Assembly: GCF_947492455.1 (NCBI RefSeq)
Contig: NZ_CANLNB010000003.1
Location: forward strand, 186,001-250,000
Direction of reading: 5' to 3'
Origin: an uncultured Aliiroseovarius sp.
Lineage (GTDB): Bacteria > Pseudomonadota > Alphaproteobacteria > Rhodobacterales > Rhodobacteraceae
Length of the DNA stretch: 64,000 nt
In this document: piece by piece, positions 5,649-63,759 of the stretch
Position numbering within the stretch: position 1 is the first letter of the stretch
How the letters are laid out: every line of letters starts with the position of its first letter
The notes under the pieces: model-generated
The model's input: the letters and a program-made list of their open reading frames with translations, nothing else
What the model was told of the DNA's origin: nothing
Database searches by the model: none
Position numbers and translations under genes: made by a program

Positions 5649-7639
5649 CCGCCAAGAAACCCAAACTGGACCACGCCCATGTGCGTCGGCTGTTGCAGGA
5701 CATGATCCGCATCCGCCGGTTCGAAGACAAATGCGCAGAGCTGTATACGCAAGAGAAGATCCGCGGCTTCCTGCATCTCTATGACGGGGAAGAGGCCATC
5801 GCCGCGGGGATCATTCCCTGCCTGACCGCCGAGGACCGCGTCGTGGCCACCTACCGCGAACACGGCCATGCACTGATGCGGGGCGTCTCGATGTCGTCGG
5901 TACTGGCCGAGATGTATGGCAAGGTCGAGGGCTGCTCGGGCGGGCGTGGCGGGTCCATGCACCTCTTTGATGCGGCAACGAACTTCTATGGTGGGAACGC
6001 CATCGTGGGCGGCGGGCTTCCCTTGGCGGCGGGCTTGGCGCTGGCCGACCACATGCGGGGCGACCGCGCGGTCACGGCCTGTTTCTTCGGCGAAGGCGCG
6101 GTGGCCGAAGGCGAATTCCACGAATCCATGAACCTTGCCGCCCTATGGCAGCTTCCGGTTCTGTTCGTCTGCGAAAACAACGGCTACGCGATGGGCACCG
6201 CGCTGGAGCGCTCGGAATCCGAGACCGATATCAGCGCCAAGGCCGCCGCTTATGGCGTCGAGGCGCGCGTGGTCGATGGCATGGATATCGTCGCGGTCGA
6301 AGCCGCAGCGATGCAAGCGCTGGACCACATTCGCACCACCGGACAGCCGGTATTTCTGGAATGCCGCACCTATCGCTTCCGCCCGCATTCGATGTTCGAC
6401 GCGCAGCTGTACCGCGACAAGGACGAGGTCGAAACGTGGCGCGCAAAAGGACCCATCGTCCGGTTCCAAACCTGGCTTCTGGTCAACGGGTTGATCCACG
6501 AGGACGAGATTGCCGCGATTGAAGCAGAGGTCGCGGCGGAGATCGACGACGCCGTCGCATTTGCCGACGCCGGCACATGGGAACCCGTCGAGACGCTGAC
6601 CAAGGACGTCATGGCCCCATCGGCCCCTCCGCCCGAGGTCACGGCGCCTTCGGGCACACTGGTCGACACCACCTATCGCGAGGCCGTGCGCGCCGCGATC
6701 TCGGACGCGATGACGCGCGACGAGCGGGTCTTCCTGATGGGCGAGGACGTGGGCGCTTATGGCGGCTGCTACGCGGTGTCGAAGGGCTTGATGGAGACCT
6801 TCGGCCCGGATCGCATACGGGACACGCCGCTTTCTGAATCTGGCTTCACCGGGGCAGGCATTGGGGCGGCCTGCGCGGGGATGCGCCCGATTGTCGAGCT
6901 TATGACCGTCAATTTCAGCCTGCTGGCGCTCGATCAGATCCTGAACACCGCCGCGACCCTGCGCCATATGTCTGGCGGCCAGTTCGGCGTGCCGGTGGTC
7001 ATTCGGATGGCAACCGGCGCGGGCAAGCAATTGGCCGCCCAGCATTCGCACAGCCTTGAGGGATGGTATGCTCATATCCCGGGCCTGAAGGTCCTCGCCC
7101 CGGCCACTCTGGAAGACGCGCGCGGGATGCTCTGGACTGCCTTGCAGGACCCCGACCCCGTGCTGATTTTCGAGAACGTGATGCTCTACAACCGGGCAGG
7201 CAAGATCGATGAGAACGCAGGGCCTGTCGAAATTTCGAAGGCGGCAATCCGCAGACCGGGCAAGGACGTCACGCTAATCACCTATGGCGGCTCGCTCTAC
7301 AAAACGCTCGACGCGGCCGAGGCGTTGGCAGAGGACGGGATCGACGCCGAGGTGATCGATCTCAGGTCTCTACGTCCCCTGGATGACGCCACCATTATGG
7401 CCTCCGTGTCCCGCACCCGCCGCGCGGTCATCGTGGACGAGGGCTGGCGCAGCGGATCGCTGGCGGCAGAAATCTCGGCGCGGATCACGGAACAGGTGTT
7501 TTGGACGATGGATGCGCCGGTCGGCAGGGTCTGCGCCGCGGAAGTGCCGATCCCCTATCCGAAGCATCTTGAAGACGCCTCGATCCCGCAGGTGCCGTCG
7601 ATTGTCGCGGCGGTGAAAGCAACAATGGGGCGCGGGTAA
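5645..7639 (+). CDS. Fused E1 alpha-beta subunit of a TPP-dependent 2-oxoacid dehydrogenase
   Basis: A 664-aa protein joining both halves of a heterotetrameric E1. Residues ~10-325 are the alpha part, with the thiamine-diphosphate motif beginning [10 protein letters not shown] (~149) and ending ENNGYAMG (~176). After a Pro/Ala-rich linker (~325-340), residues ~345-664 are the beta part ([24 protein letters not shown]-terminal [10 protein letters not shown]). The family decarboxylates pyruvate, acetoin or branched 2-oxoacids and acylates the lipoyl group of E2. Substrate cannot be read from the sequence; the alpha part resembles pyruvate/acetoin types. It overlaps the ligase gene by 4 bp and is one base from the E2 gene. 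E1alpha/E1beta are normally separate proteins, so the fusion is notable. Confidence 0.88.
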
Positions 7640-7640
7640 G

Positions 7641-8795
7641 ATGGCTATTTTTCGAATGCCCTCGCTGGGTGCAGATATGGAAGCCGGGACACTGGTCGAA
7701 TGGCTGATTAAGCCGGGGGACGAGGTACACCGGGGCGATGTCGTCGCCGTTGTCGAAACGCAGAAAGGCGCGATCGAAATCGAAAGTTTTGAGACCGGCG
7801 TGGTGTCCGAGCTGATTGCCAGCATAGGACAAACCGTACCGGTGGGAGAGGAACTGGCCCGGTTCGGCACGGATGCACCAGTAGCAAGCGCCCCTACCCC
7901 TGAACCGCCTGCAGAACCTGCTGCTATGGCAGAGCCCAAAACAACAACTCCACCGGCAGCCCCCATCCCCAAAACCGGGACCCGCGCAAGCCCCGCCGCG
8001 CGCCGCACAGCGCAGGAACGGGGGATCGACTTGTCGACCCTAACCGGCAGCGGGCCGGATGGGGCAATTGTTTTAGCGGATGTCGAGGCACAGGCACCAG
8101 CGACGCCCAAAGCCCCGTCGACGATTGGCGGCTTGTCCGAGATGCGCAAGGCTGTGGCCGCTGCGATGGTCCGCTCCAAGCGCGAAATCCCGCATTTCTC
8201 GGTTTCGCACAATATCGACACGCAGCACCTGTCGGAATGGCTGAGCGCGCGTAACGCCGACCGCCCGCCCTCCGAACGCGTTTTACTGGGCGCCGCGATC
8301 GTCAAAGCCACTGCGCTAGCCCTACGCTCGGTCAATGCCTTGAACGGGCACTTCACCGAAGACGCGTTCCTCCCATCGGACGAAGTCAATATCGGCGTGG
8401 CCATCGCCTTGCGGGGCGGCGGCCTGGTGGCCCCGGCGCTGCATCAGACCGACACTATGACACTGGACGAGGTCATGGCCGACATGCGCGACATGGTCAC
8501 CCGGGCCCGCGCAGGCCGTTTGCGGGGATCGGAAATGACCCGTGGAACCCTGACCGTCTCCAGCCTTGGCGAAAAAGGGGCCGAGGCAATGACCGGCGTG
8601 ATCTTCCCCCCGCAAGTCGCCCTTCTGGCCGTCGGCGCCCCCCAGATCCGACCTTGGGTTGCAGGGGACACGGTTGTCCCACGCGAGGTGACACGTTTCA
8701 CGCTCTCTGCCGACCACCGCGTCTGTGATGGGCGGCAAGGGTCCAAATTCCTGATGACCTTAGAAGACATTCTGTCAAAACCGGAGGAGCTATGA
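7641..8795 (+). CDS. E2 dihydrolipoamide acyltransferase
   Basis: 384-aa E2 component. An N-terminal single lipoyl domain (1-80) carries the lipoylation Lys42 in ETQKGAIEIE. A Pro/Ala-rich linker (~82-112) follows, then a peripheral-subunit-binding domain (~117-150, SPAARRTAQERGIDL) and a catalytic acyltransferase domain (~165-384) with the active-site signature DHRVCDG near 357. It accepts the acyl group from E1 and passes it to CoA. Start ATG 7641 lies one base after the E1 stop. The stop overlaps the ACP gene start by 4 bp. No E3 (dihydrolipoamide dehydrogenase) gene lies nearby, so a shared E3 encoded elsewhere is inferred. Confidence 0.9.
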   Translation: MAIFRMPSLGADMEAGTLVEWLIKPGDEVHRGDVVAVVETQKGAIEIESFETGVVSELIASIGQTVPVGEELARFGTDAPVASAPTPEPPAEPAAMAEPKTTTPPAAPIPKTGTRASPAARRTAQERGIDLSTLTGSGPDGAIVLADVEAQAPATPKAPSTIGGLSEMRKAVAAAMVRSKREIPHFSVSHNIDTQHLSEWLSARNADRPPSERVLLGAAIVKATALALRSVNALNGHFTEDAFLPSDEVNIGVAIALRGGGLVAPALHQTDTMTLDEVMADMRDMVTRARAGRLRGSEMTRGTLTVSSLGEKGAEAMTGVIFPPQVALLAVGAPQIRPWVAGDTVVPREVTRFTLSADHRVCDGRQGSKFLMTLEDILSKPEEL

Positions 8796-52737: not shown

Positions 52738-52808
52738 GCACTTATTTGTTTTTCCCTTTTTATCCCTGACCTCGCGCAATTTCGCCGCCATCGCCTGTGG
52801 AGGAGAAC

Positions 52809-54887
52809 ATGGCCCAGACCCCGCATCAAAATGACGTGGACAATTCCGATCCCGTTGACGTGTATGAACACATTCTCGAACACGAGGACCGCGACACGCA
52901 GGTCGCTGCCGTTGCCATCGACAAGACCGTAAAAGGCGTCGGCAACATCGTCATGTGGGCCAACCTGCTTTTGGTGGCTGCTATCGTGACACAGGTGAGC
53001 CTGCGCTATATGTTCAATGTGAACTTCCCCAAGCTCGATGAAATCCAGTGGCATTTCTATGGCTTGGTGACGATGGTCGGCATTTCTTATGCCTTGGTGA
53101 CCGACAGCCACGTACGCGTTGATATCCTGCACATGCAGCTAAGCCGCCGTGCGCAGCGGGTGATCGAGGTGATCGGGATCCTCGCCCTGCTGGCGCCTTT
53201 CATCTATCTTATGATCGATCAGGGCTGGGATTATTTCTATGAAAGCTGGCGGGTGAACGAACGCTCGGACAGCCCGACAGGACTGCCTGCGCGCTGGGCG
53301 TTCAAAGCTGTGATCCCGGCCAGCTTCGTGCTGCTGGCGCTGGCTGCTGTGGCCCGGTTGATCCACGACGCGCATGCCATCGTGGTGAATTACGAGGACG
53401 AAAGGAAGGGCAAGGACCTACGCCTGATCCTGTGGGCGCTGGTGGCCTTTGCGGTCGTCGCAACCGCGCTGACATTCGTGGTCGAAACCACCGAAGAAAA
53501 GCTGGTCATCGCGATGTTCCTGACCTTCATCGCGCTTCTGTTCACGGGCTTCCCTGTGGCGTGGACCCTTGCAGGCGTTGGTGTCGCGTATTGCGGGCTG
53601 GCTTACCTGTTCGACAATGACCTGATGTTGTGGACTGGGCTGGAAAGCACCTTTACCGGGCTTGACTATTTGACCCTTGGGGCCGTGGTGAACCGTGTCT
53701 ATGCGACCATGTCGAACGCGGTTCTGGTGGCACTGCCCATGTTCATCTTCATGGGCCTGATGTTGGATGAAAGCGGCGTGGCGGAACGCCTGATGACCTC
53801 GATGCAGCGTCTGTTTGGGACGGTGCGCGGCGGGCTGGCCATCACCGTGACCATGATCGGCATTATCCTAGCAGCGTCGACCGGCATCATCGGCGCGTCG
53901 GTGGTTCTGCTGGGCGTGCTGTCGCTTCCGTCGATGATGGAGCAGAAATACAACCCCTCGCTGGCGGCTGGTGTGGTGTCGGCATCCGGTACACTTGGCA
54001 TCCTGATCCCGCCCTCGATCATGCTGGTGATTATGGCAGACCAGATGGCCCTGTCAGTCGGCGACCTGTTCATGGCCGCGGTGTTCCCGGGCGTCATCAT
54101 CGGGTGCCTCTATCTGACCTATATCTTCGTCATTGCACTGATCAAACGCGATGTGGCCCCAGTGCCCGAGGGCGCAACCCGCCCTGACTGGGCTGCCGTC
54201 AAGGATGTGCTGATTGCCATCCTGCCGACACTGGGTCTGATCCTTGCGGTACTGGGCTCGATCTTCGCGGGCCTCACCACGCCGACCGAGGCGTCGGGCG
54301 TGGGTGCCCTTGGCGCGACCCTGCTGGCGCTGGGCTATCGCAAGCTGACCTTCCGCAAGCTGGTCAACGTGCTGAAAGCCACCTTCAACACCACCGCCTA
54401 TATCTTCGCGATCTTCTTGGGCGCGACTGTGTTCAGCTATGTGCTGCGGGAATTGGGCGGCGACGCGTTGATCGAGGACATGATCCACAGCGCTGGCCTT
54501 GGCGCCACGGGAACTGTGATTTTCATCCTGTTCATCGTGTTCCTGCTGGGCTTCGTGCTGGACTGGATCGAAATCACGCTGATCGTGCTGCCTCTGATGC
54601 GCCCGATTGTGAATGCGCTGGGTCTGGATGTTCCCGGCTTTGGCGCCATCGATGAACCGGCGCTGGTGTGGTTCGTGATCCTTGTGGCGGTGACGTTGCA
54701 GACCAGTTTCTTAACGCCACCGGTTGGATTTGCGCTCTTCTATCTGAAGGGGGTTTGCCCGCCCGAGATCAAACTGACGGATATCTACAAGGGCATCATT
54801 CCCTTCGTGATCCTGCAGCTGATCGGTCTTGCCCTTGTCTTCTACTGGCCCGCACTTGCCACTTGGCTGCCCTCGGTCGCGTACTAG
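52809..54887 (+). CDS. Fused TRAP transporter small and large permease (DctQM)
   Basis: 692 aa. An acidic N-terminal ~45 residues precede a DctQ part (~45-205; IQWHFYGLVTMVGISYALVT, HVRVDIL) joined by an extra TM helix to a DctM part (~240-692; TLGAVVNRVYATMSNAVLVA, SGTLGILIPPSIMLVIM, FLTPPVGFALFYLKG). ATG 52809 follows GTGGAGGAGAAC; a GTG 12 bases upstream is less likely. Translocation unit for the preceding binding protein. Ends 11 bases before lldD. Confidence 0.92.
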   Translation: MAQTPHQNDVDNSDPVDVYEHILEHEDRDTQVAAVAIDKTVKGVGNIVMWANLLLVAAIVTQVSLRYMFNVNFPKLDEIQWHFYGLVTMVGISYALVTDSHVRVDILHMQLSRRAQRVIEVIGILALLAPFIYLMIDQGWDYFYESWRVNERSDSPTGLPARWAFKAVIPASFVLLALAAVARLIHDAHAIVVNYEDERKGKDLRLILWALVAFAVVATALTFVVETTEEKLVIAMFLTFIALLFTGFPVAWTLAGVGVAYCGLAYLFDNDLMLWTGLESTFTGLDYLTLGAVVNRVYATMSNAVLVALPMFIFMGLMLDESGVAERLMTSMQRLFGTVRGGLAITVTMIGIILAASTGIIGASVVLLGVLSLPSMMEQKYNPSLAAGVVSASGTLGILIPPSIMLVIMADQMALSVGDLFMAAVFPGVIIGCLYLTYIFVIALIKRDVAPVPEGATRPDWAAVKDVLIAILPTLGLILAVLGSIFAGLTTPTEASGVGALGATLLALGYRKLTFRKLVNVLKATFNTTAYIFAIFLGATVFSYVLRELGGDALIEDMIHSAGLGATGTVIFILFIVFLLGFVLDWIEITLIVLPLMRPIVNALGLDVPGFGAIDEPALVWFVILVAVTLQTSFLTPPVGFALFYLKGVCPPEIKLTDIYKGIIPFVILQLIGLALVFYWPALATWLPSVAY

Positions 54888-54898
54888 GAGTTTGGAAC

Positions 54899-56086
54899 AT
54901 GCGTCTTAAAGACTGTCACAACTTCCACGATTTCCGAAAACTGGCGCAGCGCCGTCTGCCGGGGCCGATCTTCAACTACATTGACGGTGGTGCCGATGAC
55001 GAGGTGACGCTGCGCAAGAACTCCAGCGCGTTCGACACGTGCGATCTGCTGCCTTCGGTGCTGCGCGGGGTGAAGGATGTGGACATGTCCGTCACCGTGA
55101 TGGGGCAAAAGCTGGACATGCCAGTCTATTGCTCGCCCACCGCGCTGCAGCGTCTGTTCCATCACCAAGGCGAACGCGCCGTTGCTGCAGCAGCCGAGAA
55201 ATACGGGACTATGTTTGGGGTGTCGTCCTTAGGCACCGTGTCGTTGGAAGAGCTTCGGCAGAAGCACAAGAACCCGCAGGTCTACCAGTTCTATTTCCAC
55301 AAGGATCGCGGGCTGAACGCGGCCATGATGCAGCGCGCCAAAGAGGCCGGCGTCGAAGTGATGATGCTGACCGTGGACAGCATCACCGGCGGCAATCGCG
55401 AACGCGATCTGCGCACCGGTTTTTCGATCCCGTTCCGGCTGACCTTGGGCGGCATGATCCAGTTTGCGATCAAGCCGATGTGGGGCATCAACTATGTCAC
55501 GCACGAGAAATTCCGCCTGCCGCAATTGGATGAGCATGTCGATATGGGCGGCGGGGCCAGCTCGATCGGTGGCTATTTCACCGACATGCTCGACCCGTCG
55601 ATGACATGGGATGACGTGGCGCAGATGGTGCGCGATTGGGATGGCCAATTCTGCCTGAAGGGCATCATGACCGTTGAAGACGCCAAACGCGCGGCTGAGA
55701 TCGGCTGCACCGGCATCATTCTGTCGAACCACGGTGGCCGGCAGCTGGATGGGTCGCGCACGCCGTTCGACCAGCTGGACGAGATCGTTCAGGCGGTTGG
55801 CGACAAGCTGGACGTCATGATGGACAGCGGCATTCAACGCGGGACCCATGTGCTGAAGGCGCTTTCATTGGGCGCCAAGGCGGTGGGCATCGGTCGCGGA
55901 TACCTTTATGCTCTGGCAGCAGGCGGTCAACCGGCTGTCGAGCGCGCGCTGGGCCTGATGCAGGCCGAGATCGAGCGCGACATGAAACTGATGGGCGTCA
56001 CGCGCGTCGACCAACTGAGCCACGACAACCTGCGTTTTCTTGGGGAAAGCGGGGCGGCGAAGATAAGCACAGGAGCTGCTGCATGA
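54899..56086 (+). CDS. lldD: FMN-dependent L-lactate dehydrogenase (alpha-hydroxyacid oxidase family)
   Basis: 395-aa TIM-barrel flavoenzyme. Seen: FNYIDGGADDEVTLRKN, CSPTALQRLFHHQGE, LKGIMTVEDAKRA, the active-site ILSNHGGRQLDG with catalytic His, and the FMN phosphate loop MDSGIQRGTHVLKALSLGAK. The family oxidises L-lactate, glycolate or mandelate. TRAP and D-lactate dehydrogenase neighbours favour L-lactate to pyruvate with electrons to quinone. ATG 54899 gives the standard N-terminus. The stop overlaps the dld start. Confidence 0.9.
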   Translation: MRLKDCHNFHDFRKLAQRRLPGPIFNYIDGGADDEVTLRKNSSAFDTCDLLPSVLRGVKDVDMSVTVMGQKLDMPVYCSPTALQRLFHHQGERAVAAAAEKYGTMFGVSSLGTVSLEELRQKHKNPQVYQFYFHKDRGLNAAMMQRAKEAGVEVMMLTVDSITGGNRERDLRTGFSIPFRLTLGGMIQFAIKPMWGINYVTHEKFRLPQLDEHVDMGGGASSIGGYFTDMLDPSMTWDDVAQMVRDWDGQFCLKGIMTVEDAKRAAEIGCTGIILSNHGGRQLDGSRTPFDQLDEIVQAVGDKLDVMMDSGIQRGTHVLKALSLGAKAVGIGRGYLYALAAGGQPAVERALGLMQAEIERDMKLMGVTRVDQLSHDNLRFLGESGAAKISTGAAA

Positions 56087-57762
56087 CCAACGACGCGCTT
56101 CTCTCTCGGTTCCGCGACATCGTCGGTCGTCGTCATGTCCTGACTGGACAGCGGGCGACTGAACGCTTTCGGCGCGGGTTCAGATCGGGGAAAGGGGAAG
56201 CGCTGTGCGTCATTCGTCCGGGGACGTTGCTTGAGCAATGGCAGGTGCTTGAGGCCTGCGTCGCGGCGGACAAGATCGTCATTATGCAGGCGGCCAATAC
56301 GGGGCTGACCGAAGGCTCCACCCCGTCTGGCGCCTATGACCGTGACGTGGTTCTGATCAACACCCGCCGCATGGACAAGATCGTGCCGCTGGACGAGGGG
56401 CGTCAGGTCATTGGCTTTCCGGGCTCCACTTTGTTTGCTTTGGAAAAACTGCTCGACCCGCTGGGGCGCGAACCGCATTCCGTGATCGGGTCGTCCTGCA
56501 TCGGCGCGTCGATCATCGGCGGGGTCTGCAACAACTCGGGCGGTTCGCTGGTGGAACGTGGCCCGTCTTATACCGAGCTGTCGCTGTACGCACAGGTCGA
56601 TGAAAACGGTCAGCTGTCCTTGGTCAACCATTTGGGGATCGATCTGGGCGACACGCCCGAGGAAATTCTGACACGGCTTGAGGCAGGCGATCTGGGGCCG
56701 AGCGTCCCGGACACCAACCGCAAGGCGTCGGCCACTGACTATGCCAGTCAGGTGCGCAAGGTGGATGCGGAAACGCCCGCGCGTTTCAATGCCGACAAAC
56801 GGCGTTTGCACGAGGCCTCGGGATGTGCGGGCAAGCTGGGCGTTTTTGCTGTGCGGCTGGATACCTATGCCAAGCCCGCCACGCAAAAGACCTTCTATAT
56901 TGGCACCAATGATACCGCAGACCTGACAGAGCTGCGCCGTCATATTCTGTCAGAGTTCGAGACGCTGCCGGTCTCGGGCGAATATATGGAGCGCGAGGTG
57001 TTCGACCTGACTGAGCGCTATGGCAAGGACACCGTCATGATGATCGACTGGTTGGGTACGGATCGCCTGCCGTCCTTCTTTGCCTTGAAAGGTGCGATTG
57101 ATGCGCGGCTGCGGTCTGTCCCCGGGCTGGCCAATTTCACCGACCGCGCCATGCAGCTGTTTGCCCGCCTGACCCCCAGCATCCTGCCGAAACGGTTGAA
57201 GGACTTCCGCAATCGCTATCGTCACCACCTGATCCTGAAGATGCGAGACGACGGGATCGCCGAGGCATCAGCCTATCTGTCCAAACTCTTTGCCGATCGC
57301 GAAGGGGGCTTCTTTGAATGTACCGACCGTGAAGCCAAGATTGCCGGATTGCATCGGTTCGCCGCCGCAGGTGCCGCAGTGCGGTACATGGCGATCCATT
57401 CGAACGAGGTCGAGGATATCTTGGCGCTGGATATCGCGCTGCGCCGCAATGATCGCGACTGGTACGAAGTGCTGCCGACTGAAGTCGATGATCAGCTTGT
57501 GCACAAGCTCTATTACGGCCACTTCTTCTGTCACGTTCTGCATCAGGATTATGTGGTCAAGAAGGGAGCTGATCCCAAGCAGATTAAGGCGCAGATGTTG
57601 GAGCTTTTGGATCAGCGCGGCGCCGAATATCCGGCCGAACACAATGTCGGGCATCTCTATCCTGCCAAGCCTGATCTGGCCGCTCATTATGCCTGCTGCG
57701 ACCCCACCAACTCCTTCAATCCCGGCATCGGAAAGATGTCGAAGAAAAAACACTATGCGTGA
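56083..57762 (+). CDS. dld: Quinone-dependent D-lactate dehydrogenase
   Basis: 559 aa, matching the E. coli Dld type (~571 aa). FAD-binding PCMH domain at N-terminus (CVIRPGTLLEQWQVLEACVA, MQAANTGLTEGSTPSG, SCIGASIIGGVCNNSGGSLV), the membrane-binding/cap region in the middle (LPKRLKDFRNRYRHHLILKM, electropositive) and C-terminal HNVGHLYPAKPDL and DPTNSFNPGIGKMS. It oxidises D-lactate to pyruvate at the inner membrane. Overlaps lldD by 4 bp, so both lactate enantiomers are handled by one operon. Confidence 0.95.
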   Translation: MTNDALLSRFRDIVGRRHVLTGQRATERFRRGFRSGKGEALCVIRPGTLLEQWQVLEACVAADKIVIMQAANTGLTEGSTPSGAYDRDVVLINTRRMDKIVPLDEGRQVIGFPGSTLFALEKLLDPLGREPHSVIGSSCIGASIIGGVCNNSGGSLVERGPSYTELSLYAQVDENGQLSLVNHLGIDLGDTPEEILTRLEAGDLGPSVPDTNRKASATDYASQVRKVDAETPARFNADKRRLHEASGCAGKLGVFAVRLDTYAKPATQKTFYIGTNDTADLTELRRHILSEFETLPVSGEYMEREVFDLTERYGKDTVMMIDWLGTDRLPSFFALKGAIDARLRSVPGLANFTDRAMQLFARLTPSILPKRLKDFRNRYRHHLILKMRDDGIAEASAYLSKLFADREGGFFECTDREAKIAGLHRFAAAGAAVRYMAIHSNEVEDILALDIALRRNDRDWYEVLPTEVDDQLVHKLYYGHFFCHVLHQDYVVKKGADPKQIKAQMLELLDQRGAEYPAEHNVGHLYPAKPDLAAHYACCDPTNSFNPGIGKMSKKKHYA

Positions 57763-57888
57763 GTTCGCCTCCGCAAAGGCCTATGCGGTAGTCTGAGGGT
57801 GGCTGCTCATCCGCAGGTAGTTGTAAGCGAGGTTTCTGAGACATATTCGTCTATCTCTAGGTGTTTGAGTCAGTTTTTTCTTGAGATT

Positions 57889-57904
57889 TAACGGCGCCCC
57901 GTTA
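57889..57904. promoter_or_regulatory. 16-bp dyad upstream of the sigma/protease operon
   Basis: TAACGG-CGCC-CCGTTA, perfect 6-bp arms, ends ~28 bp before the first gene of the operon. It could be an operator or overlap the promoter. The 170-bp gap also has GAGACATATTCGTCTATCTC, a weak dyad. I found no certain ECF -35/-10 pair. Confidence 0.45.
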
Positions 57905-57931
57905 GTAAGCCCCGACGCAAACTAGGGACTA

Positions 57932-59812
57932 TTGGTGCAAAGCTATCGCGGGCAAAAATCAAGCAAACTGGGGGCGTGGATCGCCGCGGTACTGATTTTG
58001 TTCCTGCCAGTAAAGGCACCAGCAAGCGATCGGGTGTCGCTGGGGAATGCGAAACCCGGTGAAATCCTGTCCATCGAAATTGATCAGCTGCTTCCCCTAG
58101 CGCGTGCGAAAGTCGAGATCGACGGTGTGCGAGTCTGGACCGCTCTGGACCTGTCTGGCACGACACTTCGCTTGAAAGTGCCCACAGACCTGACCGGCAA
58201 CACACACGAGATTGTGCTGTATGAAGATACCGCGCGGGGCGACGTTCTGATTGGCCGGTGGGAGTTCACGCTTGTCGCGGCGGGCACGACCGAAGCCTAT
58301 GTTGCCGTCCAATTGGAAAGCGGTGTGGTCGGAAACCGCGATGCGCATAAAGTTTATACCGGGTTCGGCGGGCGGCTGGATTTCGATATCCAAGATGGTC
58401 TGCTGCGTGGCGGTCTAAGCTTCTCGCGCGCGGCATTACCGGACCCAGAGACCGGCGAGTACTACGCGATCAACGATCACTATTTGGAAACTCGACACAC
58501 GGTGCTGGGCGGGGACCTCTCGCTACGGCTGGGCTCGCACTACTACAACATCAACGGAAACCTGATTGATCAGGCATCGCGCCGCGGGGTGTCTTTGCGG
58601 TTCGCGGATGCCACCAACCGGGACGAGGTCGCCGCCTTCGTGTTGCAACCCGGCCTGTCCACCAGTCCAGACAATCTGATCGGCGTTGCCGACCGGAATG
58701 ATCGCGTCATCGGGGCGACAACCCAGATCGCGCCGTTTCTGAATTCTGGCCTGCGCCTTGGATTCACCGCCTTTGACGGGCGGGCAGGGGATCTGCCCAA
58801 CGGGTCTGTTGGCAATGTCCGGGGCAAGGGCGTATCGCTGTCCGCGCCGGTGGTCGGCGACCGCGTGGATGTCCTGCTGTCGGCAGACGAGACCGAGTGG
58901 TTTGACGGCGGCACTTGGCGTTCCGGGCAAGCGCTGGAGGCTGAACTGGATATTCGCCTGACACCGCCTGAACGCCCGGACGCGCTGTCACTTGGTCTGG
59001 GCTATTCGCAGATCGATCAGGATTTCCATTCACCGCTCAATCCGGACCTGATTGTCGGCGAGCGCGCCAAACGGGTGGAGCTGGAATACGCGGGCCATGA
59101 ATGGAGCTGGGCCCTTGGTGCCGAACAGGCGCGGACCAACGAAGGGGGCAGCCCGGATCAAGCGGTGGACCGCCTGACCCGACTGTCGTTCGAAACGACC
59201 TACGCCCCTGATGTTTTCACCGGTGGCTTCCTGAACGGCGCAAGGTTCTATTTCTCGTCCGAACTGTTCGTGCAGGAACGGCTTGAAACCCCGCTGGGTG
59301 CCTTGCCTGAACAGGATCACCAACTGGCCTCGTTCAGCGTCGGGATGAACAAATTCACCGAACACGGCAGCTATGCAGTGCTCTATAGCTACGAAGATCT
59401 GGAGTATCTTTCGGCACCCGATGGGGATGAAATTGCCCATGGGTTGGAGCTTCTGGCCTCGGTCGCGCCCACTGATCGACTGGACGCTACGGTCGAGCTG
59501 AAGATGCGCCATCATGCCTCGACCCTCGGGGATTTTTGGGAGGCGCGGGCAGCCGCCAGCTTGAACTACGCGCTTGTTCCCGACCTGTGGGACTATGCAC
59601 TTGAGGCCGGGATTGTTGAGTATAGTGACAGCTCTAGCGAGAATGCCCGCTATCTGCGGCAGGAAATCGAGTGGACCTTTGTCGAAGATCATTCGCTTGT
59701 CTTCAGCGCGGAATACATGGAAGGTGCTTGGTCACGTAGGATGATCGACGGAGATGGCTGGCTGTTTGGGCTGGCCCTGCGCAGCGACATCAACCACATC
59801 GTGTATCGGTAG
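57932..59812 (+). CDS. Outer-membrane beta-barrel-like protein of the ECF/protease operon
   Basis: 626 aa. Start TTG 57932 (or GTG 57935) after TAGGGAC. Signal peptide ~12-32 (VLILFLPVKAPAS). Residues ~35-120 resemble an Ig-like beta domain (KVEIDGVRVWTALDLSGTTL). Residues ~130-626 show alternating hydrophobic/polar short strands with aromatic girdles (GGLSFSRAAL, LSLRLGSHYYNINGN, SLGLGYSQIDQDFH, YAVLYSYEDLEYL), ending in the short strand NHIVYR, the profile of an outer-membrane barrel. Nine bases before the ECF sigma gene. Not recognised as any named porin; a secretion or surface-anchoring partner of the protease is inferred. Confidence 0.68.
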   Translation: MVQSYRGQKSSKLGAWIAAVLILFLPVKAPASDRVSLGNAKPGEILSIEIDQLLPLARAKVEIDGVRVWTALDLSGTTLRLKVPTDLTGNTHEIVLYEDTARGDVLIGRWEFTLVAAGTTEAYVAVQLESGVVGNRDAHKVYTGFGGRLDFDIQDGLLRGGLSFSRAALPDPETGEYYAINDHYLETRHTVLGGDLSLRLGSHYYNINGNLIDQASRRGVSLRFADATNRDEVAAFVLQPGLSTSPDNLIGVADRNDRVIGATTQIAPFLNSGLRLGFTAFDGRAGDLPNGSVGNVRGKGVSLSAPVVGDRVDVLLSADETEWFDGGTWRSGQALEAELDIRLTPPERPDALSLGLGYSQIDQDFHSPLNPDLIVGERAKRVELEYAGHEWSWALGAEQARTNEGGSPDQAVDRLTRLSFETTYAPDVFTGGFLNGARFYFSSELFVQERLETPLGALPEQDHQLASFSVGMNKFTEHGSYAVLYSYEDLEYLSAPDGDEIAHGLELLASVAPTDRLDATVELKMRHHASTLGDFWEARAAASLNYALVPDLWDYALEAGIVEYSDSSSENARYLRQEIEWTFVEDHSLVFSAEYMEGAWSRRMIDGDGWLFGLALRSDINHIVYR

Positions 59813-59821
59813 GGCGCGGAT

Positions 59822-60379
59822 ATGAATGATGCAGATCTGAAAGCTTTGATCCACCGGATCGGAACGGGCGACAAAATCGCCCTCGACGCGCTTTATCGCC
59901 AGATGGAGAAACCGCTCTACAGATTTATCAACATTAAATTGAACGATCCGTTCCTCTCGGCCGACATACTTCAAGAAGTGTTTTTAGATGTATGGAAAGG
60001 GGCGGCCGCATTTGAAGGGCGGTCTGCTGTCAAAACGTGGATGTTCTCGATTGCGTACCGAAAGGTAATTGATGTGTTTCGCAAGAATGCGCGCCTGACG
60101 ATTGCCGATGATCTGCCCGAGCAGCTGGACGAGGCGCCAAGTGCGATGGCCCAGATTACGGCTGCCGAAGAGGCGGATCATTTGCGGGCCTGTTTGGCGC
60201 AGTTGAAGCCCGATCATCGTGACGCCATCGAGTTCGCGTTCTACGAAGACATGAGCTATCGCGAGATCGCCGAGGTGACATCAGTCCCGGAAGGGACCGT
60301 CAAAACCCGTATTTTTCATGCTAAGAAGTTGTTGTTGCACTGCCTTCAGGGCAGAATGAATACAAAGGTAGCATCATGA
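59822..60379 (+). CDS. ECF-type RNA polymerase sigma factor
   Basis: 185 aa. Region 2 at ~25-90 (DALYRQMEKPLYRFINIKLN, FLSADILQEVFLDVWKGAAA, FEGRSAVKTWMFSIAYRKVI), linker, and region 4 at ~125-180 with HTH (LKPDHRDAIEFAFYEDMSYR, EIAEVTSVPEGTVKTRIFHA). Sigma-70 family without regions 1 and 3, so an extracytoplasmic-function type. The stop overlaps the anti-sigma start (ATGA). Probably autoregulates the operon and other targets. Confidence 0.92.
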   Translation: MNDADLKALIHRIGTGDKIALDALYRQMEKPLYRFINIKLNDPFLSADILQEVFLDVWKGAAAFEGRSAVKTWMFSIAYRKVIDVFRKNARLTIADDLPEQLDEAPSAMAQITAAEEADHLRACLAQLKPDHRDAIEFAFYEDMSYREIAEVTSVPEGTVKTRIFHAKKLLLHCLQGRMNTKVAS

Positions 60380-60969
60380 GTTCGGAAGTAGATCGTCAGC
60401 ATATCCTTGATTTGTTGCCCTTTTGGGTCAACGGAACACTGTCAGAGGACGAGCAGGACATGGTCGAGGCCGCAATGGCACAAGACCCGTCGCTGCGGCA
60501 AGAAGCCGAGATGCTGTCCCTTGTTCGTACAACGATGCAACAGCAGCCCGACGGCGAAAGTCCGGGCGAACTGGGTTTGGCGCGGCTTCGGCGTGACATC
60601 GAAGATAGCCCGCAGAAAGTTGTTGAAGGGCGATCCAGAACGCGGCGCTATATGCTGTCGTTCTCAGGTGGGCTGGCGGCCGCGTTTGCCCTGATTGCCG
60701 TAATTGGCAACTTCCGCGTATCGGAAGATGTTTACGAACTGGCGTCGTCCAATAATGACACGGCGAATATCGTTGTGATGTTCCGAGCGGATGTCACGCA
60801 GGCGTCGATGGCGTCGTTGTTGCAGAGGCACGAGTTGGTGATCGTCGACGGTCCGTCCGCGATTGGCCTGTACCGGTTGTCCCCGCTTGATCCCGGCGCT
60901 GATCTTACGCAGTTGGCCGGTACGTTGCGCTTGGAGACTGACGTTTTCGAAAGTGTGGATCTTCCGTGA
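60376..60969 (+). CDS. Membrane anti-sigma factor without zinc motif
   Basis: 197 aa. The cytoplasmic N-terminal anti-sigma domain (~5-85) has DLLPFWVNGTLSEDEQDMVE but no HxxxCxxC zinc ligands. TM ~94-112 is followed by a periplasmic domain ~113-197 whose pattern (VVMFRADVTQASMASLLQRH, LVIVDGPSAIGLYRL) looks like a small alpha/beta fold similar to protease prodomain/inhibitor I9-like modules. ATG overlaps the sigma stop and its stop overlaps the protease GTG start. Inference: the periplasmic domain is the signal-sensing or protease-contacting part. Confidence 0.85.
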   Translation: MSSEVDRQHILDLLPFWVNGTLSEDEQDMVEAAMAQDPSLRQEAEMLSLVRTTMQQQPDGESPGELGLARLRRDIEDSPQKVVEGRSRTRRYMLSFSGGLAAAFALIAVIGNFRVSEDVYELASSNNDTANIVVMFRADVTQASMASLLQRHELVIVDGPSAIGLYRLSPLDPGADLTQLAGTLRLETDVFESVDLP

Positions 60970-62492
60970 AGCGCCTTGCTCTTGCCGTTGCTCTGATTGC
61001 CATCACGCTTTTTGGCGTCGTGCCAAGCGCACAGGCGCAGCAAGGCAATTGCGTGCTGCCCGGTGACATTCTGGATGTGCCCACCCCCGGGTTTCTCAGG
61101 AATGCGACGCCCAATCTACGCACGCGGGTGAGCGGCACATTGCTGCCGGCCACGTTGATCTCGCACACCACCAGTCGGCTGCGTGTCAGGCTACCACTCA
61201 GCGGGTTGCCGTATTCCGTTCAGTTCCACGTCGTCCATGTCGAGCCGAACGGGTCGACCAAAGTCGTTGCGTCGGCGCGGATTTGCGATGATCCGAATGG
61301 TGGAGGAGGCCTTGGCCCCGGAGGCGGCGGTACAGGCACCGGTCCCGGAGGCAGGTCTGGCTTGGGGCAGGGGCTGTCCCTCAGAACGCCCAATGGCCAG
61401 CCGCTTGTTCGTGCCACGCGGAACGAGGTCGCCGCCCCAAGTGGGGGACCGGAATACCTGTTGATCGGCTCCAGCGAAGAAGTTGCCCGCGCCCAGACCA
61501 TGATGTCGCGTGAAGGCGTGTCTATTCTGCGCAACACCTCTTTGGGGGCTTTGGGCGCGCGGATGTCTGCGGTGGACTTAAACGGGCGTATGTCGCTTGC
61601 GGAGCTGCGGTCCCGCCTTGCCCGTCAGCGGATTTCGGTGATTGTCGACAAGCATTCGGTCTATGGGGCCGCGAAGGGGCGCACAACCTATGCCAATCGG
61701 CTTCTGGGCCTTGCGCCCGACACGGGATGCAAGCTGAACCGCCCCGTCCGCGTGGGGGTGATCGATGGCCCGGTGGACACCTCGAACCCGGCTTTGCGGG
61801 GCGTGTCGGTCAAATCGACCTCGGTCCTGTTTCCGCGCGATCGCACTGGATCGGTCGATCATGCGACGGGCATCGTGGCTCTGATCAGCGGCTGGGGGAC
61901 GGATAAGCTTCCGCAAGGGATCAGCCCGGGGGCCGAAATCTTCTCGGTCGTGGCGTTCGCGCGCAATGGCGGGCGGTCGGTCGCGCGGCTGGAAAGTATC
62001 GCGCAGGGGCTGAACTGGATGGTCGAGAACAATGTCGACATCGTGAACATGTCCTTGGCTGGGCCGAAGAACGATAGCCTGGAAGACATCGTCAAAACGG
62101 TTGCCCGCAAAGGGCTGATTATGGTGGCGGCCACCGGGAATGGGGGGCGTGCCGCCGTGGCCTATCCCGCATCCGATCCGAATGTCATCGCAATCACCGC
62201 AGTAGATGCGCGCGCGCGGCTGTACAAACATGCCAATGGCGGACCCGAGGTGGACTTCTCCGCGCCGGGTGTAGATCTGCTTTTGCCACGTGGACGGGGC
62301 ACGACCTTTGCCTCGGGCACGTCATATGCCGCGGCTTTTGCCACTGCGATCATCGCGCAAGAGGTCGCGCGATCGGGGCTGCGCAAGCAGCAGCTTCTGA
62401 ATACTTTGCGCCAGCGGTCCCGCGACCTTGGGCGTCCCGGAAGGGACAGCCGGTTCGGCTGGGGGCTGATCCAGGCCGACAGCTGCAAATAG
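60966..62492 (+). CDS. Exported subtilisin-like (S8) serine protease
   Basis: 508 aa from GTG 60966. Signal peptide 1-~24 (FGVVPSAQAQ). Residues ~30-105 form a beta-rich domain, ~110-135 a Gly-rich flexible linker, ~155-225 a prodomain-like segment, and ~255-508 the peptidase. Catalytic triad: Asp267 in VGVIDGPVDTSNP, His299 in DHATGIVALISG, Ser453 in FASGTSYAAAFATA, with an NMSLAGPKND oxyanion-side stretch. It is coupled to an ECF sigma/anti-sigma pair and a barrel protein. Substrate unknown: possibly the anti-sigma periplasmic domain or surface proteins. Confidence 0.92.
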   Translation: MKRLALAVALIAITLFGVVPSAQAQQGNCVLPGDILDVPTPGFLRNATPNLRTRVSGTLLPATLISHTTSRLRVRLPLSGLPYSVQFHVVHVEPNGSTKVVASARICDDPNGGGGLGPGGGGTGTGPGGRSGLGQGLSLRTPNGQPLVRATRNEVAAPSGGPEYLLIGSSEEVARAQTMMSREGVSILRNTSLGALGARMSAVDLNGRMSLAELRSRLARQRISVIVDKHSVYGAAKGRTTYANRLLGLAPDTGCKLNRPVRVGVIDGPVDTSNPALRGVSVKSTSVLFPRDRTGSVDHATGIVALISGWGTDKLPQGISPGAEIFSVVAFARNGGRSVARLESIAQGLNWMVENNVDIVNMSLAGPKNDSLEDIVKTVARKGLIMVAATGNGGRAAVAYPASDPNVIAITAVDARARLYKHANGGPEVDFSAPGVDLLLPRGRGTTFASGTSYAAAFATAIIAQEVARSGLRKQQLLNTLRQRSRDLGRPGRDSRFGWGLIQADSCK

Positions 62493-62910: not shown

Positions 62911-63759
62911 ATGTCGGACCGAACGCAAACCACCGATGCCATGCGCTGGATGCTTCTGGTGGCGGCGGTGCTGGTCACGGTCATCGGCGCGCCGTTGTTC
63001 CTGTTGCCCGACAAAACCGCGTTTTTGTTTTCGTGGACCGTGAACCCGCCGGTGACCGCGGCCTTTTTGGGCGGCGCGTATTTGGCCGCTGGCTTGGTCG
63101 AGTTTCGCGCCTCGCAGGACACAACATGGGAGAGCGCACGCATCGCGGTGCCCGCGGTCTGGATCTTCACGACCATGACCCTGATCGCCACGCTGCTACA
63201 CATCGACAAGTTTCACTTCGGCGCAGAGTTCGCCCCGTTCACCCAGTTTGTCACTTGGGTCTGGCTGGCGGTCTACGGGTTGGTGCCGATTGTGATGGGG
63301 GCATTGTGGGTACTACAGCTGCGCAAAACGTCCAAGGATGGTCCGCGTGCGAACCCGATGGCTGGGTGGATGCGGACCGTGCTGTGGGGGCAGGCAGGTA
63401 TCTTGCTGTTGCTTGGGGGCGGGTTATTTCTCGCCCCTGCCGACATCAAGTTTCTGTGGCCGTGGGCGCTTAGCGCTCTGACGGCGCGTGCAGTGGGCGC
63501 GTGGCTGATCGGTATCGGCGCACTGTCCGCGCATATGGCCTTGGAAGGGGACAATCAACGGGTTGCACACGCCAATGCGGCCTTGATCGTCTTCTGCGTG
63601 TTGGAGGTGTTGGCCGTCATCCGGCTTTCCGCAGATACGTCTGCGGCTGGCGACCCAGTTATCGATTGGGGTGATGCGCGCATTTGGCTCTTCATTGCCG
63701 CGCTAGGGGCAATGCTCGGGACAGCGATTGCAGGCTGGAGGGCGCGCGCGCATGGATGA
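62911..63759 (+). CDS. Multi-pass membrane protein of unknown function
   Basis: 282 aa with about eight hydrophobic segments in two similar halves: ~13-32, 45-65, 80-98, 112-135, then ~155-175, 180-205, 220-240, 255-275. The halves share an 'APLFLLPDKTAFLFSW' / 'GLFLAPADIKFLWPW' motif, suggesting internal duplication. A His-containing segment (LLHIDKFHFGAEFAPF) lies between TM3 and TM4. ATG follows AAAGGGGGGACT. I do not recognise the family; no neighbour gives a pathway clue. Confidence 0.75.
   Translation: MSDRTQTTDAMRWMLLVAAVLVTVIGAPLFLLPDKTAFLFSWTVNPPVTAAFLGGAYLAAGLVEFRASQDTTWESARIAVPAVWIFTTMTLIATLLHIDKFHFGAEFAPFTQFVTWVWLAVYGLVPIVMGALWVLQLRKTSKDGPRANPMAGWMRTVLWGQAGILLLLGGGLFLAPADIKFLWPWALSALTARAVGAWLIGIGALSAHMALEGDNQRVAHANAALIVFCVLEVLAVIRLSADTSAAGDPVIDWGDARIWLFIAALGAMLGTAIAGWRARAHG

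Follow-up and report, generated by a model that had tools for sequence, protein, structure and literature searches.

An extracytoplasmic function (ECF) sigma factor and its anti-sigma factor are encoded together with an exported subtilase of the S8 family in a four-gene operon (positions 57932 to 62492) of an uncultured Aliiroseovarius sp., within a 64,000-nucleotide stretch, hereafter the window, that covers positions 186,001 to 250,000 of contig NZ_CANLNB010000003.1 (assembly GCF_947492455.1). We consider it rather probable that this sigma/anti-sigma switch senses its own neighbouring exported subtilase, with the anti-sigma factor serving as a membrane receptor for the S8 protease. The computed results behind this reading are the linkage of the genes across relatives, the predicted fold of the anti-sigma periplasmic domain, a weak family match of that domain in relatives, and co-variation between the two halves of the anti-sigma factor and their presumptive partners.

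An operon joining an ECF sigma factor to an exported subtilase

The four plus-strand open frames that an earlier note on this DNA had reported were all present, and the junctions read from the letters were, as it had described, a 9-bp gap followed by an ATGA and then a GTGA overlap. Behind a gene for a putative outer-membrane barrel protein (57932 to 59812, 626 amino acids from an uncertain TTG start, defined by open reading frame and sequence and discussed below) lies the gene for the ECF sigma factor (59822 to 60379), whose product, of 185 residues, is short and has regions 2 and 4 of sigma-70 proteins (Pfam Sigma70_r2, expectation value (E) 1.1e-11, and Sigma70_r4_2, E 3.4e-16, both above cut-off) and matches the NCBIfam sigma70-ECF superfamily at 96.2 bits (cut-off 42.9). 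The genes for the anti-sigma factor (60376 to 60969, 197 amino acids) and the S8 subtilase (60966 to 62492, 508 amino acids) complete the operon. Its distribution is patchy, with occurrence in 4 of the 21 genomes examined from the genus, the window's own included (2 of the 21 being less than 90% complete), and the nearest named homologues of the protease belong to Aliiroseovarius, at 90-93% identity.

The anti-sigma factor was assigned from weak family matches and from an AlphaFold2 (AF2) model built on 63 aligned sequences, in which a helical, putatively sigma-binding domain (residues ~1-77) is followed by a membrane-segment helix (79-111), a linker and a periplasmic domain (132-195). The modelled helices span residues 7-19, 24-36, 38-56, 64-77 and 79-111, the last containing a hydrophobic stretch judged by eye to be the membrane segment; the linker after residue 111 was of low confidence, and the predicted template modelling score (pTM) of 0.42 leaves the relative placement of the domains undefined. 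The window protein fell below the cut-offs of both zf-HC2 (Pfam, E 0.0028, weak) and NCBIfam antisigma (E 2.8e-9), the latter being matched by 62 of the 63 aligned anti-sigma factors at E up to 0.01. An N-terminal helical domain with a membrane helix, as predicted here, is the layout of class I (ZAS-type) anti-sigma factors; the zinc-binding His/Cys motif is missing, and the complete lack of cysteine in the protein bears out the earlier statement that it has no zinc ligands. Zinc-less members do occur in class I.

The protease (Pfam Peptidase_S8, E 7.2e-29) has, by eye, a signal peptide at residues ~1-25, followed by an N-terminal beta domain (~30-110, IPT/TIG-like), a Gly-rich linker of low confidence (113-137), a propeptide of its own (~160-235) and the catalytic domain (~258-506), the AF2 model having a mean predicted local distance difference test (pLDDT) value of 88 and the pro-subtilisins 3whi and 2zwo as its nearest folds in the PDB. 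The triad Asp267, His299 and Ser453, described earlier as intact, is so in the window sequence and is invariant among 62 aligned proteases (window included), while Asn392, at the expected position of the oxyanion Asn, is kept in 90% or more of them. Triad, subtilisin fold and propeptide are those of an S8 subtilase, and all 62 proteins matched Peptidase_S8; weak matches to the TIG family were seen in 3 of the 62. At one related locus (L030) a small frame between the genes for the anti-sigma factor and the protease (7245-7652) encodes an exported-looking product in which a weak profile match, as well as inspection by eye, shows a resemblance to the N-terminal part of the S8 protein.

Conservation of the sigma, anti-sigma and S8 genes as a unit

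The anti-sigma factor was searched for in 61 genomes, in 395 genomes of the family and in 289 of the class. It was found in 8 of the first 61, each time with an S8 gene within 800 bp (8/8). In the next set, comprising 57 further loci from 55 genomes where the anti-sigma match spanned the periplasmic domain, an S8 gene lay within 800 bp in 56 (57/58 when L079, which has both sigma and S8 genes, is counted), and a sigma gene was nearby in 55, the exceptions being L143 and L146. All three genes shared a strand in 38 of these 57 loci, the S8 gene was opposite to the anti-sigma gene in 13, and the sigma gene alone was opposite in 4; as order and strand vary and the genes nevertheless stay together, the linkage outlasts rearrangement. 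A scan of named genomes from the protease side gave 50 loci, and an anti-sigma gene adjoined the protease gene in all of the closest 20, as against 2 of the 30 more distant loci with one nearby. This second count is not independent of the first, since 10 of the 20 loci lie on contigs already counted from the anti-sigma side. The closest 20 belong, by family or genus name, to the Rhodobacteraceae, with the exception of 'Proteobacteria bacterium RHODO1'. A phylum-wide search of 397 genomes extended the association, with an S8 gene within 700 bp in 24 of 31 loci hand-picked from the 42 new domain-spanning matches listed.

The linkage of the sigma/anti-sigma pair to an S8 protease in relatives, which had been set as a test of the idea, thus holds in the family and class and, for the closest loci, from the protease side. 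Of the four genes, those for the sigma factor, the anti-sigma factor and the S8 protease make up the conserved core, in varying order and on varying strands; the barrel gene is linked at a minority of loci.

Among 20 comparison loci whose anti-sigma match ended ahead of the periplasmic domain or soon after its start, S8 was absent from the fetched stretch in 14 (3 of the 20 stretches being shortened by contig ends) and present in 6, where it never shared the strand of the anti-sigma gene. A second S8-ECF arrangement was seen at L032, L033, L150, L151, L153, L155, L158 and L160, where the S8 gene is opposite to both sigma and anti-sigma genes and the anti-sigma match stops short of the full periplasmic domain; at L032 and L033 the S8 protein is Asp-rich and the periplasmic part differs by eye. 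The alignments of 63 anti-sigma factors and 62 proteases omit L034 (self), L026 (a near-duplicate), L122 (split anti-sigma frame) and L032, L033 and L035 (of the other type or without anti-sigma factor), and the protease alignment also omits L143, where there is no S8 gene. The split at L122, in the region of about 6121-6843, may be a true lesion or a sequencing error.

A propeptide-like domain in the anti-sigma factor and its possible role

Fold prediction and family matches in relatives suggest that the periplasmic domain of the anti-sigma factor (coding segment 60769 to 60960, plus strand) resembles subtilase propeptides. In the AF2 model the domain consists of strands at residues 132-136, 154-158, 165-170 and 191-195 and helices at 142-151 and 177-185 (pLDDT of the block 94-97), giving a predicted beta-alpha-beta-beta-alpha-beta fold of the propeptide type, one that is also common outside propeptides, and it carries a conserved loop of the DGPSA type. 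Among the best 50 of 776 Foldseek matches (E up to 10), 12 were subtilase propeptides, propeptide-like inhibitors or pro-subtilisins, and these included EpiP (3qfh and 3t41), the subtilisin prosegment (1spb_P), POIA1 (1itp), Tk propeptides (2z56 and 2z58), the PC1/3 prodomain in 9fid, and 3whi; to judge from the 66-67 aligned columns, the EpiP and 3whi matches would lie in their propeptides. When 30 isolated domains, hand-chosen from the 63 anti-sigma proteins, were scanned, PF22148 (the fervidolysin N-terminal prodomain) was matched by 14 (E up to 1, lowest 7.1e-5, mostly weak), and each of the six other families listed was matched by one domain. The same family was matched by 18 of the 63 full-length anti-sigma factors (E up to 1, best 6e-6, mostly weak scores) and by 3 of ten scanned singly, each time in the periplasmic part. 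A profile of the domain aligned with that of the S8 protease's own propeptide collinearly and over nearly the full length, at E 0.0005-0.0014 in a single comparison. Beyond the reference valine in its last strand, the domain ends in a tail with a median length of 3 residues (range 1-10, 63 sequences), which by subtilisin BPN' numbering we take to be too short, so that the active site would be left unfilled.

Co-variation was analysed with distance matrices from the 61 loci that have all parts. Raw correlations were high throughout (0.64-0.86). When the sigma distances were given, the correlation with the catalytic domain of the protease was 0.43 for the periplasmic half of the anti-sigma factor, compared with 0.12 for its cytoplasmic half; when the protease distances were given, the correlation with the sigma factor was 0.54 for the cytoplasmic half, compared with 0.25 for the periplasmic half. 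Bootstrapping over loci gave ranges of 0.13-0.48 (protease) and 0.12-0.47 (sigma) for the two differences, and a less redundant set of 53 loci gave, in the same sequence, correlations of 0.44, 0.09, 0.52 and 0.22. As a correlation rather than a proof, this pattern fits a cytoplasmic half that would bind the sigma factor and a periplasmic half that would bind the protease.

The binding, direction of signal and cleavage that we infer would proceed as follows. The zinc-less helical domain would hold the ECF sigma factor in the cytoplasm, while the anti-sigma factor would display its propeptide-fold domain across the inner membrane. Because propeptides bind the catalytic domains of subtilases, this domain would most likely dock the product of the adjoining S8 gene, and because the domain's tail is so short, docking would probably leave the active site unoccupied, which favours a receptor over a strong inhibitor. 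The docked protease would then cut the flexible linker (~112-131), or let another site-1 protease cut it, and a site-2 protease of family M50 would complete the cut and release the sigma factor; the window's genome contains one M50 match scoring 220 bits and, elsewhere, a pair of weaker ones in one place. The earlier suggestion that the exported protease may be the signal, or the site-1-like protease, of its own sigma factor gains a further argument from the propeptide-like domain.

Several results weigh against such a receptor. The subtilase-related Foldseek matches had E-values of 0.04 or worse, none of the 50 shown reached 0.001, and the top match (E 0.0047) was a translation factor. The window's own periplasmic domain gave no Pfam match at E up to 1, PF22148 was not significant anywhere in the window's genome (lowest E 0.54, for a match outside this contig), and the domain profile found no subtilase, nor anything else relevant, among PDB sequences. 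Probabilities were low (7 and 31%) when the profiles of domain and S8 propeptide were compared, and in the pairwise comparison of the window's periplasmic domain with the propeptide of its protease 97 of 500 shuffles scored as well, so that this pairwise support was set aside and profile and fold together are what weakly indicates kinship of the two. With PF22148 matched by just 2 of the 62 S8 proteases, the anti-sigma domain is not demonstrably copied from its partner's own propeptide. The genes that co-vary are themselves linked, and the protease showed a higher raw correlation with the sigma factor (0.84) than with the periplasmic half (0.78). Not every homologue has the protease beside it, either: L143 is without S8, although the second copy in the same genome, L146, adjoins one, and S8 was missing from 7 of the 31 phylum-wide loci. 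In three of these 7 a protein with the same propeptide-like domain is encoded directly beside a caspase-like protease of family C14, at L208 (4950-5756, Peptidase_C14, E 1.8e-39) and L215 (6400-7773, E 1.3e-40) with anti-sigma and sigma genes present, and at L226 (6138-8195, E 4.9e-15) with a related protein that has no Pfam match and no sigma gene found. At the other four the few neighbours checked, one or two each at L209, L216 and L224 and none at L227, included no protease.

In a rival explanation the protease would be co-regulated output only, a target of the sigma factor, and the periplasmic domain would sense some other signal through a generic ferredoxin-like fold; the weak Foldseek values led by a translation factor, the lack of a Pfam match for the window's own domain and the homologues without an S8 neighbour all speak for it. 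We consider this improbable, since PF22148 was the sole family matched by more than one of the 30 isolated domains, the linkage survives rearrangement, and the sigma factor does not account for all of the co-variation between periplasmic half and protease. It is rather unlikely, if less so, that the domain is in the first place a membrane-tethered inhibitor that acts as a true propeptide would and keeps the S8 protease inactive in the periplasm until secretion, with sigma release following from protease overload in a dual role like that of RsiV. The predicted propeptide fold would suit an inhibitor; the tail, at the length given above and by BPN' numbering, looks too short for the substrate sites, and the S8 protease already has a propeptide of its own. 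Precedents for inhibition exist in the potent inhibition of subtilases by a propeptide-like protein, SUB1-ProM (PMC6993865), and in an anti-sigma factor, RsiV, that both inhibits and senses lysozyme (PMC5014341). The least probable of the explanations, by our estimate, is a folding sensor, where the domain would capture unfolded or still-exporting protease and report its folding or secretion state to the sigma factor. Propeptides facilitate the folding of catalytic domains (PMC6993865), and the predicted fold is of the propeptide kind; the protease, however, carries its own propeptide, and direct evidence for a folding sensor is lacking.

Set beside known systems, the proposed receptor would share with the RseA/DegS/RseP envelope-stress pathway of E. 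coli a membrane anti-sigma factor under the control of proteolysis, here with an M50 protease in the genome. It would differ in the protease involved, for DegS is an HtrA-family PDZ protease (PMC8103513), whereas the linkage here is to an S8 subtilase. RsiV of Bacillus subtilis binds and inhibits lysozyme, and this binding is needed for site-1 cleavage (PMC5014341); the RsiV/sigma-V system is thus analogous to the role proposed here, in that an extracytoplasmic anti-sigma domain would be the receptor of an exported enzyme and feed into regulated proteolysis. The two differ in the ligand, which is lysozyme for RsiV and here would be the cell's own subtilase, encoded alongside, and the domain here resembles the propeptides of that enzyme class. 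SUB1-ProM of Plasmodium is described as a stand-alone propeptide-like subtilase inhibitor (PMC6993865); it parallels the proposed arrangement in being a propeptide-like domain encoded beside subtilase genes and acting in trans, action in trans being a proposal here, and it differs in standing alone instead of being joined to an anti-sigma factor. RsiV and SUB1-ProM are thereby precedents for the two halves of the receptor idea. According to a review (PMC8999054), group ECF54 has subtilases among its conserved neighbours, as does the system here, together with carboxypeptidase and CHAT proteins, and is discussed as being controlled without an anti-sigma factor; unlike ECF54, the present system includes an anti-sigma factor with a propeptide-like domain. 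In the literature searched we found neither this operon nor any anti-sigma factor with a propeptide-like domain, the main ECF classification (10.1093/nar/gkaa1229) being outside that search.

In this operon the ECF sigma/anti-sigma pair is likely to carry a sensor domain of a new type, the probable ligand of which is encoded next door. To our knowledge the signal is unknown for many ECF sigma factors, and here sequence by itself points to a ligand, the neighbouring protease, which would be recognised through a propeptide-like domain. It is possible, at a little under an even chance, that anti-sigma factors with captured propeptides form a widespread sensor class, in which each sigma factor would read one exported protease, mostly S8 and in some cases C14, and monitor its activity, folding or secretion. 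If the receptor reading is right, a large set of uncharacterised anti-sigma factors would have a directly testable signal, the fold of a protease propeptide would have been reused as a signalling receptor, and protease-responsive promoters could serve as tools.

The putative barrel gene, upstream motifs and neighbouring genes

The first gene of the operon had been described as encoding an outer-membrane barrel, which is plausible and stays unproven, as the protein has no family match and its strand count is not significant. The protein has an N-terminus that by eye is hydrophobic and of the export type, followed by a beta-rich stretch (~30-122) and about 500 residues of candidate barrel; its start is uncertain, and the open frame of a close relative begins 17 residues earlier. 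No match was found in Pfam or NCBIfam at E up to 1, in PHROG or among PDB sequences. The 626-residue sequence contains 29 amphipathic-strand windows, compared with 25.7±2.9 after shuffling, a number that was reached by 29 of 200 shuffles, while all 13 homologues exceeded their own shuffled mean in strand-like windows (13/13).

A barrel homologue was linked in 11 of the 57 family and class loci, in one of them (L091) on the opposite strand; it lies directly upstream of the sigma gene at L092, L097 and L105, and behind an extra frame at L090, L122 and L134-L138. It was also found near the sigma, anti-sigma and S8 genes in 12 of the 20 named loci (partly the same contigs as the 57), directly upstream of the sigma gene in named Aliiroseovarius, Tropicibacter, Gemmobacter and Tabrizicola. 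On the 11/57 count we rejected the barrel as a core part, and the suggestion that it is a secretion or surface partner within the core found no support; the barrel is an optional extra to the sigma/anti-sigma/S8 core. The extra frame of relatives, ~370-450 codons between the barrel and sigma genes (L090, 7191-8300; L122, 4431-5561; L029, 9466-10674; and L134-L138), does not occur in the window, and its product at L029 had no Pfam match. A shared N-terminal domain of barrel and protease was considered, as the two scored 45 in a pairwise test (24.0±4.2 for shuffled sequences, with none of 500 shuffles as high), and homology was dropped when a profile comparison with homologues gave it no support (E 0.26).

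Upstream of the operon, a block on the plus strand (57873 to 57908) holds TTGAGA-N16-TAGTAA and, on alignment of four same-genus upstream regions, is largely conserved in those four genomes. From its sequence we regard it as a candidate operon promoter, closer to sigma-70 promoters than to the TGAACC-N16-CGAC of some relatives, and no strict ECF-type motif was found upstream of the window operon. The dyad TGAAC-N16-18-CGAC was present upstream of the anti-sigma gene in 10 of the 13 loci with an opposite-strand S8 gene (13/13 in a looser form, 1.8 expected) and upstream of the sigma gene in 5 of 44 same-strand loci, of which 38 belong to the 57 and six to the first set (looser, 6 with 3.8 expected). 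Upstream of the S8 gene it occurred in 3 of 13 (looser, 3 with 1.1 expected), and upstream of the barrel gene in none of 15, the window included (looser, 2 with 1.0 expected). Autoregulation by the ECF sigma factor was therefore rejected as a general rule, the dyad being confined to a subset of loci, and we make no such claim for the window.

The region preceding the operon (52797-57762) contains a frame with DctQ/DctM domains, a flavin mononucleotide (FMN)-dependent dehydrogenase gene and then a D-lactate dehydrogenase-like gene, and looks like a cluster for the uptake and oxidation of lactate or a hydroxy acid. Downstream of the operon (62911-63759) lies the gene for a 282-residue protein that is partly hydrophobic by eye and has no Pfam match, and a frame of the same size is found near the operon at L025.

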